A stretch of 38,464 nt of DNA from an uncultured Bacteroidales bacterium (lineage in GTDB: Bacteria; Bacteroidota; Bacteroidia; Bacteroidales; Muribaculaceae): NCBI GenBank assembly GCA_947573135.1, contig CANPDU010000034.1:1-38464 (forward strand), written 5' to 3'. Under the pieces are notes generated by a model. It was not told where the DNA came from. It did no database searches and worked only from the letters and a program-made list of their open reading frames with translations. Below, piece after piece: positions 28,570-34,507 of the stretch. The translations under genes were made by a program, and so were the position numbers. Position 1 is the first letter of the stretch; every line of letters begins with the position of its first letter.

Positions 28570-28601
28570 TTTGTAATGATTGCAAAAATTGCTTAACTTT
28601 G
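28570..28601 (+). promoter_or_regulatory. Promoter inside the intergenic region (for the small RNA)
   Basis: TTTG (28570-28573), a 20-base spacer and TAACTTTG (28594-28601) form one of the best promoter matches in the window. No ORF follows it. The expected start is at about 28606-28608. Confidence 0.78.
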
Positions 28602-28603
28602 CA

Positions 28604-28722
28604 ACGGTTAAAAATGTCTTAGGTCTTATGACCTGATGCTCAAAGAACCGTTTTTCAAAATATATATGTTTTTATAGATTGTAGATTATTAGAGGGCTCT
28701 ATCGCGAGATACAGCCCTTTTT
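28604..28722 (+). ncRNA. Candidate structured small RNA
   Basis: The segment between the promoter and terminator is about 115 nt and has no open reading frame of note. AACGGTT (28603-28609) pairs with AACCGTT (28644-28650), enclosing the perfect hairpin AGGTC-TTAT-GACCT (28621-28634). An AT-rich single-stranded stretch follows, then the terminator hairpin. I did not match it to a known family. A 6S-like or other Bacteroidales regulatory RNA is possible, and so is a leader for the next gene, although that gene has its own promoter downstream. Confidence 0.6.
28692..28722 (+). terminator. Intrinsic terminator of the small RNA
   Basis: AGGGCT-C-TATC, loop GCGA, GATA-C-AGCCCT is a stem of ten pairs with one internal C-C mismatch, followed directly by TTTTTT. 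It is a textbook intrinsic terminator. Confidence 0.88.
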
Positions 28723-28806
28723 TATTTGTAATTCCGCAAATCATCTCGCATTTATTACCTTTTTATGAACACTTTTTTACAAAGCCATTAATTTTTTTGC
28801 TGAAAA

Positions 28807-31369: not shown

Positions 31370-34300
31370 ATGAAACTTAAATTAGCAAAAAATTTTAGGC
31401 TATTGGTCTCTCTGTGGTGTTTCTTTGCGGCAGTCGTCTGTGCGTATGCCCAGGTTACAGTCACAGGTACTGTCCTTGACAAAGACGGGGAAACAATGCC
31501 CGGCGTATCAGTCCGTCTGAAAAGCAACCCCCAGGTTGCTGCCGCTACGGATATAGACGGACATTTCACGCTGAAAGTTCCCAACCTGCAGCAGACACTC
31601 GAACTGAGCTATGTCGGCTACAAAGCGCAGAGTGTCGCTCTTAACGGACGCTCAAATGTCGAAATCGTCCTTCAGGAAGACTCCGAAATCCTCGACGAAG
31701 TCGTAGTCGTAGGTTACGGCCAGCAGAAGAAGGTCAGCGTAACCGGCTCCGTATCATCAATCTCCGGCAACGACCTCATCAAGGCTCCTATGCAGAACGT
31801 TTCGAACCTCCTCACCGGTAAGGTGTCGGGTATTACCGCAGTCCAGAGCACCGGTCGTCCCGGTGAGGACGGTGCATCGATCAAAGTGCGCGGTATCAAT
31901 GACTTCAGCGGTTCGGGTCCTCTCGTGATTGTCGACGGTGTGCAGATGGACATGAACCTTGTCAACCCTAACGATATCGAAAGCGTGTCAGTCCTCAAGG
32001 ACGCATCGGCCGCAATCTACGGTGTCGAAGGCGCCAACGGTGTAATCCTCATTACTACCAAGAAAGGTCAGGAAGGCATGGCCAAGATCTCTTACTCAGG
32101 CACATTCTCATGGGTTCACAACACTGCCCTCCCCGAATTCTGCGACGCCGAAGAGTATATCTACTGGCACAACAAAGCGTCTATCATGGACGGTATTACC
32201 CCCCGCTTCGACGCCGACATTCTCCGTCGCGTAAAGGAGGCTGCGCCCGATGACTGGCTCGGCAACACCGACTGGTTCAAGGAAATTTTCCGCACGGGCT
32301 TCACCCAGCAGCACAACGTGTCTGCAACCGGCGGCGGTAAGAACACATCTTACTTCGTTTCCGGCGGCATCATGGACCAGCAGGGCACAATGCGCGGCAC
32401 CAACTACCGCCGTTACAATGTGCGTTCCAACCTCGAAATGAAGGTTGCCAAGAACTTGCGCTTTGCCAGCACAATCTCTGCCTACCGCACTGAAAAAGAT
32501 TATCCGAACACCGACATGAGCGAACAGAGTACATACAACCCCGCATCAGAGGCTGTTTATACACTGCCTATCTTCCAGAAGGAATATCAGGGTCGCCCGG
32601 TAGGTTACGGCCAGGGAGGCAAAAACCCTGTCGCCGCTATCGAGCAGAGCGGCTTCCAGCGCACATACGCCAACCGTTTCGTGGGTACAGCCCTTCTGGA
32701 ATATGACTTCAAGGCTGTTCATCCGCTTCTCGACGGTCTGAAAGTGTCTGTCTGGGGTTCATACAATACATGGCACCAGAACGCCGAATCATATTTCGGT
32801 GCAATAGAAATGTTCCAGGTGCTTCTCAACGATGTCACCACAGGATCTGTCGCTTACAAGGCTGACTATGCCAAAGGTCAGGAGAACACTTCTTACAGCA
32901 AGTCTTCAGTATGGGACTACACTGCAATGCTCCGCCCCCAGGTTAGTTACAACCACAAGTTTGGCAAAGCCGAAGTCGGTCTTCTCTACCTCTATGAAGC
33001 TACCAAATATTTCTCGAGCAACGTCGGCGCGTCGGCGCGCAACTACATCGCTCCCGATCCTGTCGACCTCGGCCTCGGTCTCGAAATCATTCCCACCAGC
33101 GTGAGCGGCGGCCACGGACGTTCGTCGAAGGCCTCTCACATCGGCCGTTTCAACTTCAACTGGGACGAGAAATATCTCCTCGAATTCGCTTTCCGTTACG
33201 ACGGCTCTTACAAATTCGCTCCCGAACACCGCTGGGGCTTCTTCCCCTCCGTATCTGCAGGCTGGATTATGTCGCAGGAAAATTTCATCAAGGATAATCT
33301 TCCCTGGGTCGACTTCCTCAAACTTCGTGCCAGCTACGGTGAGTCCGGCAAGGACAACATCACGGCCTTCCTTTATGAATATCTCTACAAGTCACGTAAA
33401 GACGGCTACATCTTCCCCAGCGGAGTTTCTATTCCTCTGGTATGGACCGACTCTTACACTCAGAGCCGCGATCTCCAGTGGTCAACGACAAAGACTTACA
33501 ACGTGGGTCTCGATATCGACGTCCTCCGCCGTAAGTTAGGACTGGAAGTTGACGTCTTCTATCAGGTGACATCCAACCTTCTCGAAGGTATTGGCGGCAC
33601 TTATCCCTCGTCGCTCGGCGGCAATACCCCAAAATATGAGAACTCCGGTTCTGTCGACAACCGCGGTATCGACTTCACCATCAAGCACGAGCTCGCTCCC
33701 TCCAAGGACTTCAGCTATCGTCTGCGCGGCACATTCGGCTTCGCCCGCAATAAAGTTCTCCGTCAGAAGATCAACGATGACCACCCCTCGTGGCGCAACG
33801 TTCTCGGCCATCCGATGGGCGCACGCTTCGGCCTTATCGCAACAGGGCTTGCCCAGACTCAGGAGCAGATCGACAATGCTCCCGCAGCTCCCTCGGGCGA
33901 CATCAAGCTCGGTGATATCCTCTATTATGATACCAACGGCGACGGCAAGATCATGTACAAGGGTTCTGAGTCTGACTATGTGCGCATCGGTTACGGCGCG
34001 CTCCCCGAAATCACATTCTCTATGAACATGGACTTCAACTTCAAGAACTTCTATCTCAACATGCTGTGGCAGGGCGTTACCCACGTCGACTACCAGCTCA
34101 ACGGTATCTGGGGCACCGGCCACTGCGACCACACCCCCTTCACCCGTCCGTTCTACAGCGACGGCAACGCGCCGAAGTATCTTGTCGAAGGATCATGGAC
34201 TCCCGAGAATACTGACGCCCGCTATCCGCGTCTGTCTTCGACTGCCCGTCAGAACAACGCGGTAGCTTCCACCTGGTGGCTCATCAACGGAGAATATCTC

Positions 34301-34507
34301 CGCCTGAAGACCCTTACTGTAGGTTATGACGTGCCTGAAAGTGTGCTCAAACACACTCCCTTCTCACGCTTCAACATCTACGTGTCAGGCACAAACGTTC
34401 TTACTTTCAGCCACTTCAAATGGCTTGATCCCGAGTCTCCCTCCATCGCCGCAGGTTACTATCCCCAGCCGGCTACATGGTCGCTCGGTCTTAATGTCAA
34501 CTTCTAA
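31370..34507 (+). CDS. SusC/RagA-type TonB-linked outer-membrane glycan transporter
   Basis: This is the TonB-dependent barrel of a Sus-like system that imports oligosaccharides or other ligands handed over by SusD. The signal peptide ends at about residue 28 (CAYAQ). A CarboxypepD-regulatory-like domain spans about 29-105. The TonB-box region DEVVVVGYGQQKK starts at D109, followed by the plug (about 120-235, with GKVSGI, VRGINDFSGSGPLVIVDGV and YGVEGANGVILITTKKG) and the barrel to the terminal LGLNVNF. A length of 1045 aa is typical. The SusD-like gene follows after 22 bases. The ligand cannot be predicted from this sequence alone. Confidence 0.96.
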   Translation: MKLKLAKNFRLLVSLWCFFAAVVCAYAQVTVTGTVLDKDGETMPGVSVRLKSNPQVAAATDIDGHFTLKVPNLQQTLELSYVGYKAQSVALNGRSNVEIVLQEDSEILDEVVVVGYGQQKKVSVTGSVSSISGNDLIKAPMQNVSNLLTGKVSGITAVQSTGRPGEDGASIKVRGINDFSGSGPLVIVDGVQMDMNLVNPNDIESVSVLKDASAAIYGVEGANGVILITTKKGQEGMAKISYSGTFSWVHNTALPEFCDAEEYIYWHNKASIMDGITPRFDADILRRVKEAAPDDWLGNTDWFKEIFRTGFTQQHNVSATGGGKNTSYFVSGGIMDQQGTMRGTNYRRYNVRSNLEMKVAKNLRFASTISAYRTEKDYPNTDMSEQSTYNPASEAVYTLPIFQKEYQGRPVGYGQGGKNPVAAIEQSGFQRTYANRFVGTALLEYDFKAVHPLLDGLKVSVWGSYNTWHQNAESYFGAIEMFQVLLNDVTTGSVAYKADYAKGQENTSYSKSSVWDYTAMLRPQVSYNHKFGKAEVGLLYLYEATKYFSSNVGASARNYIAPDPVDLGLGLEIIPTSVSGGHGRSSKASHIGRFNFNWDEKYLLEFAFRYDGSYKFAPEHRWGFFPSVSAGWIMSQENFIKDNLPWVDFLKLRASYGESGKDNITAFLYEYLYKSRKDGYIFPSGVSIPLVWTDSYTQSRDLQWSTTKTYNVGLDIDVLRRKLGLEVDVFYQVTSNLLEGIGGTYPSSLGGNTPKYENSGSVDNRGIDFTIKHELAPSKDFSYRLRGTFGFARNKVLRQKINDDHPSWRNVLGHPMGARFGLIATGLAQTQEQIDNAPAAPSGDIKLGDILYYDTNGDGKIMYKGSESDYVRIGYGALPEITFSMNMDFNFKNFYLNMLWQGVTHVDYQLNGIWGTGHCDHTPFTRPFYSDGNAPKYLVEGSWTPENTDARYPRLSSTARQNNAVASTWWLINGEYLRLKTLTVGYDVPESVLKHTPFSRFNIYVSGTNVLTFSHFKWLDPESPSIAAGYYPQPATWSLGLNVNF

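Follow-up and report, generated by a model that had tools for sequence, protein, structure and literature searches.

The DNA between the amylase and surface-protein genes of the window (the whole stretch of 38,464 nt that was analysed) probably encodes, at positions 28603-28724, a trans-acting antisense small RNA (sRNA) of a Muribaculaceae family of RNAs that represses a set of envelope operons. Pairing of its putative seed with sites in these operons is well supported by comparison of related genomes, and we infer that pairing in the cell and a repressive effect are both most likely. Muribaculaceae are a common family of the gut. Trans-acting sRNAs are a familiar kind of regulator, and the case in Muribaculaceae is one without precedent in the literature searched: the titles and abstract openings of open-access articles gave no report of an sRNA of this family, and those on PspC/PadR and on sRNAs with phage shock held nothing on this RNA. 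Predicted targets that are backed by co-evolution are uncommon for a finding made from sequence only. The finding would connect RNA-based regulation with membrane stress of the PSP type in Bacteroidota, and the naturally occurring set of matched seeds and targets lends itself to tests of how sRNA regulons evolve.

Organisation of the predicted small-RNA gene

The promoter, a predicted RNA of about 120 nt and the terminator (Table 1) very probably form a free-standing small-RNA gene, as judged from the sequence and as the original prediction had proposed. The promoter, described there as near-consensus, is an exact fit over positions 28570-28601 when TTTG N TAnnTTTG, which we take to be the Bacteroidota consensus, is used as the yardstick. 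Promoters of this type (at most one mismatch) were identified upstream of 66 of 73 homologues, against 6.3 expected from shuffles; three of 76 loci with too short an upstream sequence were left out of this count. Scanning the interval for an E. coli-type promoter gave nothing. A simple terminator scan of the interval also gave nothing, probably because of the internal bulge of the stem, which consists of 12 pairs (28691-28698/28713-28720 and 28700-28703/28708-28711), is closed by a GCGA loop and is followed by a T-run (28718-28723).

Table 1. Predicted features of the small-RNA gene and their positions in the window
Feature	Position	Strand	Remarks
Promoter, Bacteroidota type	28570..28601	+	TTTG at 28570, spacer, TAACTTTG ending at 28601
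Predicted sRNA transcript, about 120 nt	28603..28724	+	Start placed from promoter, end from terminator; fold z -4.8; homologues
5' hairpin	28603..28652	+	Outer stem AACGGTT/AACCGTT, inner stem AGGTC/GACCT
Mostly unpaired stretch	28653-28690	+	Between 5' hairpin and terminator
Conserved core and putative seed ATATATATGTTTTTATAGATTGTAGATTATTAGAGGG	28660..28696	+	Contains TAGATTGTAGATT at 28675-28687
22 nt perfectly complementary to ABC-transporter mRNA leader	28673..28694	+	Target G000:C29:39097-39118, mRNA on minus strand
Intrinsic terminator, GNGA loop	28691..28723	+	Compensatory changes at 12/12 pairs; 5'-arm AGAGGG also in pairing region

Both pairings noted earlier, the outer (28603-28609/28646-28652) and the inner stem (28621-28625/28630-28634), are present in the minimum-energy fold of the RNA, whose energy of -35.8 kcal/mol (z -4.8) was equalled by none of 200 dinucleotide shuffles. 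Searches of the interval for tRNA and tmRNA genes returned none and, in agreement with the earlier description of a region without an ORF, no ORF of at least 100 amino acids lies in it. Downstream of the surface-protein gene, the window encodes a SusC/RagA-type transporter (31370-34507, TIGR04056), one of 17 matches over the cut-off in this genome.

Conservation and distribution

Selection acts mainly on the unpaired positions 28660-28696 between the hairpins rather than on the 5' hairpin. Of the 49 family homologues read, 45 have TAGATTGTAGATT unchanged and the other four carry one change in it. This sequence is also invariant in an alignment (A2) of 57 of the 73 sequences gathered, partly by construction because most rows were found by exact match to it. 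The terminator has changed widely in sequence in A2, yet 96.3% of its pair cells form; all 12 pairs show two-sided changes, 156 cells are compensatory, and the covariation score is 0.736 compared with 0.320 for shuffled and at most 0.170 for slid alignments. Conservation and compensatory change in relatives, one of the checks put forward in the original prediction, were both found. The 5' hairpin, probably there for stability, is retained in most same-genus relatives with differing sequence and is lacking in G018; over 23 same-genus RNAs, the one of the window included and that of G014 dropped for having no recognisable promoter box, the mean fold z is -2.2, with 15 of 23 below -1.5. The nearest genes are common only to the closest relatives and vary between subclades, and just 30 of 64 loci have a downstream gene of matching strand; promoter, core and terminator, by contrast, are retained. 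Selection on a promoter, an unpaired core and a terminator points to the plan of a base-pairing sRNA.

The predicted RNA is, on the searches that follow, a member of an undescribed sRNA family, found only in Muribaculaceae-type genomes and usually in one copy each. A DNA search of 99 genomes, including that of the window (G000, hereafter the own genome), gave matches in 33, and in the loci read the shared part is mainly the 3' half. Within the genus, the RNA is present in 26 of 49 genomes (own included, loci with the core read): 24 came from the DNA search, and two more (G021 and G028) were confirmed when model R2 was applied to all of the other 25 genomes, among which G042 gave a weak partial match that was left uncounted. 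With model R1, 58 matches were obtained in 56 of the 149 family genomes, and every match was read. This RNA accounts for 49 of them, with a single copy in each of 49 genomes that represent 16 of 30 genera. The other nine were rejected, three as FopS loci and the remainder as other terminators, so that the unfiltered counts (56 genomes, 21 genera) are overestimates and the figures of 49 and 16 are used here.

A collection of 84,980 species contains 65 stretches with a perfect copy of a 22-mer of the core; their titles are Muribaculaceae or other Bacteroidales, bar three (one just 'bacterium'). An isolate recorded as Barnesiella sp. WM24 (L272) also has the core. Two MAG records titled Pseudoflavonifractor and Lachnospiraceae (L227 and L281) carry the RNA and are probably mislabelled Bacteroidales. 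Forty genomes of other Bacteroidales families held no convincing copy; the weak R2 matches in six of them (at most 36.5 bits) are plain terminators by eye. A 19-mer of the core was absent from viral contigs, and a phage origin was rejected on this ground. A repeat element unrelated to this RNA, CTAATAATTTACAAAATAT, was seen dozens of times in G074, often at contig ends.

Predicted targets

The core plus the AGAGGG of the terminator is complementary to sites in translation-initiation regions. In the own genome, 22 nt of the core are matched at one other place, where the complementary strand is mRNA. This site spans the stop codon of a 29-codon hydrophobic ORF, 26 nt ahead of an ABC-transporter ATPase gene (PF00005) that is followed by one ORF without a Pfam match and then by a gene for a GntR-type regulator (PF00392). 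The small ORF (MNICSVISSASGFWPALLTTLTVILILLL; G000:C29:39113-39202, minus strand) has its stop inside the target site, and by eye a similar hydrophobic reading frame ends at the same point in G010 and G043. The padR-pspC operon (PF03551 and PF04024) has weaker sites across the pspC stop codon and approximately 100 nt beyond it (C12:79412 and C12:79312).

The duplex with the ABC leader has a calculated energy of -35.4 kcal/mol. On average, 130 leaders of the own genome reach -15.0 (sd 3.7); they serve as a yardstick and not as an unbiased ranking because the loci were fetched after a genome-wide scan had pointed there. Next came the leader downstream of pspC (-32.5 kcal/mol) and that of padR (-21.9 kcal/mol), a weak site only, which was counted against the targeting reading. 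The best of 2000 dinucleotide-shuffled seeds reached -25.4 kcal/mol on the ABC leader. Scanning both strands of the own genome with a 19-mer (up to three mismatches) returned only the sRNA, the ABC site (no mismatches) and the pspC site (three mismatches); the reversed control pattern gave two matches.

Among relatives, the ABC leader pairs at -34.8 to -38.2 kcal/mol in five of nine sRNA-bearing genomes, with nothing comparable in 12 genomes without the sRNA (-10.6 to -17.0 kcal/mol); these are 21 of 30 places, eight from other families and one at a contig edge (G006) having been left out. Sites at the end of pspC were seen, in 11 genomes read, in G000, G036, G001, G016, G008 and weakly in G024, and G038 has an additional site between padR and pspC. 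Chance duplexes within coding sequence reach -25 to -29 kcal/mol. A pattern scan of 25 same-genus genomes yielded 37 matches, namely 14 in the sRNA, eight in padR/pspC/ABC operons and 15 elsewhere; the reversed control yielded 13, which places the matches outside the operons at chance level.

The padR leaders were surveyed in all 40 same-genus genomes with a padR match, 25 with and 15 without the sRNA, some loci (e.g. G002 and G047) ending early at contig edges. Pairing with the genome's own sRNA is at -25 kcal/mol or below in 16 of the 25 and at -9.0 to -23.6 in the other nine. For genomes lacking the sRNA, 14 of 15 leaders lie at -12.0 to -15.7 kcal/mol (mean over 25 sRNAs); the fifteenth, G029, has a site (-27.6), yet a search of its assembly, which is 93% complete, revealed no copy of the sRNA. 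A 17-mer site (up to three mismatches) is present in 16 of 25 padR loci of genomes with the sRNA versus none of 15 without it (Fisher p 4e-5, uncorrected for ancestry). Read by eye, 24 of the 26 sRNA-bearing genomes have a site in the padR, pspC or ABC operons; no clear site was seen there in G014 and G040.

A zero-mismatch 22-mer complement occurs at most once per genome across the 149 family genomes. The extended 22-nt complement was rejected as a general target rule, just two of eight non-sRNA family matches being plausibly ahead of a gene. Outside the genus, where the core is equally conserved, only two possible sites were found: a near-complement with one mismatch ahead of an acyl-CoA-ligase-like gene (L309, G128:C22:15592-15613) and one with three mismatches ahead of a gene for a small exported protein (L307, G111:C1:36922-36943), both genes being assigned by eye.

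Co-evolution of seed and target sites

Where the seed has changed, some predicted target sites have changed along with it. In G018, the seed has gained bases (GATTACTGTAGAGGG) and its counterpart in the padR leader is CTACAGTAATC; G032 and G038 carry TTTGTAATTAG on the 5' side of the seed, with CCAATTACA and CTAATTACA in their leaders; a seed with ATTATCG is met by leaders with CGATAAT in G021 and G028; and in G001, TTATCAG in the seed is met by CTGATAA in the ABC leader. Compensatory change is clear in G018, G032/G038 and G028. It is weaker in G021, whose own pairing (-25.4 kcal/mol) is barely better than the mean over all sRNAs (-25.0), and in G001, because CTGATAA also occurs with TTATTAG seeds through G-U pairs (ABC leader of G010, pspC of G000).

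Over 25 genomes, padR leaders pair with their own sRNA at a mean of -27.7 kcal/mol versus -25.3 for permuted pairs, a mean gain of about 2.3 kcal/mol (p 1e-4, uncorrected for ancestry). The own sRNA is the best of 25 for three leaders only (G018, G032 and G038) and is among the worst partners for those of G008, G011, G014 and G040. Pairing of the flanks alone gave a permutation p of 1.4e-4 (n=17), or 0.004 with seven collapsed seed types, with the tree not modelled and G004 anchored on the wrong one of two repeats.

Proposed function and alternative explanations

The RNA has the attributes of a base-pairing sRNA: a promoter and intrinsic terminator of its own, seen in sequence and covariation; an unpaired seed that is conserved and has complements in the initiation regions of unlinked mRNAs; and compensatory change between seed and targets. 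The seed TATAGATTGTAGATTATTAGAGGG would base-pair with CCCTCTAATAATCTACAATCTATA-like sites that surround start codons or overlap the stop codon of the cistron before. The putative targets are padR-pspC, an operon for membrane stress of the PSP type that includes a PadR regulator, and the ABC-transporter/GntR operon; pairing would block translation initiation and so repress these operons together. Repression is suggested by analogy with FopS, a Bacteroides sRNA that pairs at initiation regions and blocks translation (PMC11697453). PspC belongs to envelope stress systems of the phage-shock type (PMC11237479), which makes a role in membrane stress a natural guess. We consider it an evenly balanced question whether this single-copy, Muribaculaceae-specific sRNA may go further and act as the post-transcriptional hub of a PSP-like envelope-stress regulon, in which one seed would silence several operons cistron by cistron and an RbpB-type RRM protein would not take part. 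Inside a single genus, the sites of such a regulon would emerge, change position (padR leader, padR-pspC gap, pspC end, ABC leader) and evolve in step with the seed.

Pairing at the same sites might instead activate or stabilise the mRNAs, or the sites after pspC might be sponges of the sRNA, and some of the latter, including both in the own genome, are indeed without a close downstream start codon. We regard this as unlikely: the 21 padR and ABC duplexes that were drawn have their ends between approximately 27 nt upstream and 17 nt downstream of the start codon (positions relative to the beginning of the protein match, a few nt off in some), which is where pairing of FopS blocks initiation (PMC11697453). 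It is a little less likely again that the RNA is a diverged member of the FopS/GibS family. The two share a plan of an unpaired U-rich seed and a GNGA terminator, sub-threshold Rfam scores were obtained for BTnc231 (20.9 bits), GibS (18.1) and FopS (17.7), models R1 (three of 58 matches) and R2 (G013 C45, G022 C24) weakly pick up FopS loci, and the seed aligns with the FopS consensus (shuffle p 0.02). However, the score of 17.7 bits (E 1.5) compares with a gathering score of 56 for FopS (RF04319), the own genome has seven separate FopS matches elsewhere, this RNA not being among them, and, for three of its own FopS seeds that were compared, the alignment does not exceed chance (p 0.16-0.58).

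The predicted transcript begins 106 nt after the end of the amylase ORF and stops 191 nt short of the next ORF, all on the same strand, which would suit a 5' leader or riboswitch of the surface-protein gene or a 3' end processed from the amylase mRNA. Such an origin is very improbable given the RNA's own promoter and terminator and a conserved seed that is matched by sites in trans; the leader reading was rejected on the unconserved neighbours, and the earlier statement that the RNA is not simply a leader holds. There is similarly scant probability that the sites are protein-binding DNA repeats and their copy in the sRNA incidental. Sites do recur, at times in tandem, but 18 are in sense and none in antisense in the 40 padR loci, all eight operon matches of the two-strand pattern scan are in sense, the sites co-occur with the sRNA, and the latter has a promoter, a terminator and covariation at the RNA level. 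Repression of envelope operons by a trans-acting sRNA is the reading that we prefer.

Comparison with known RNA families

No Rfam family matched at its gathering score in the window or in 16 homologous loci, which bears out the earlier failure to assign a family. The best permissive match, BjrC68 (23.4 bits versus 39), was rejected, as mainly the terminator was aligned. BTnc231 (RF04180) has a similar U-rich stretch and GNGA terminator, with 20.9 bits against 80.4 and an alignment mainly over the terminator and a low-complexity stretch. GibS (RF04182) is likewise a Bacteroidales sRNA with seed pairing at initiation regions (PMC11697453); it differs from this RNA in promoter type and targets, and membership was rejected (gathering score 115).

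By analogy, the RNA would work like Bacteroides FopS, yet it is outside FopS by the membership test. The R1' seed of FopS, GTGTTTTTCATAGTATTAGATTTAAGG, stands at the 5' end, whereas the seed here is different and internal, between two hairpins. FopS is a family of paralogues with 12-15 copies per genome and this RNA usually has one; FopS targets mainly susC, whereas the predicted targets here are the padR-pspC and ABC operons and include internal cistrons; and FopS is bound by RbpB, an RRM-1 protein, whereas a search of the own genome for RRM_1 (PF00076) gave no match at E 0.001.

FopS was described for Bacteroidaceae (PMC11697453). The seven FopS matches of the own genome, four of them over the cut-off, lie on contigs C1, C2, C6, C20 and C27 (L042-L046), and each of the 37 same-genus genomes that were searched, the own one among them, gave matches, as did eight of 24 from other Bacteroidales families. 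A genus within the family (L351, L352 and L358 in G120, G139 and G173) has a variant core of the present RNA, AAGATTGTAGATT, preceded by GTGTTTTTAC or GTGTGTTAC, which is halfway in look towards the start of FopS, GTGTTTTTC.
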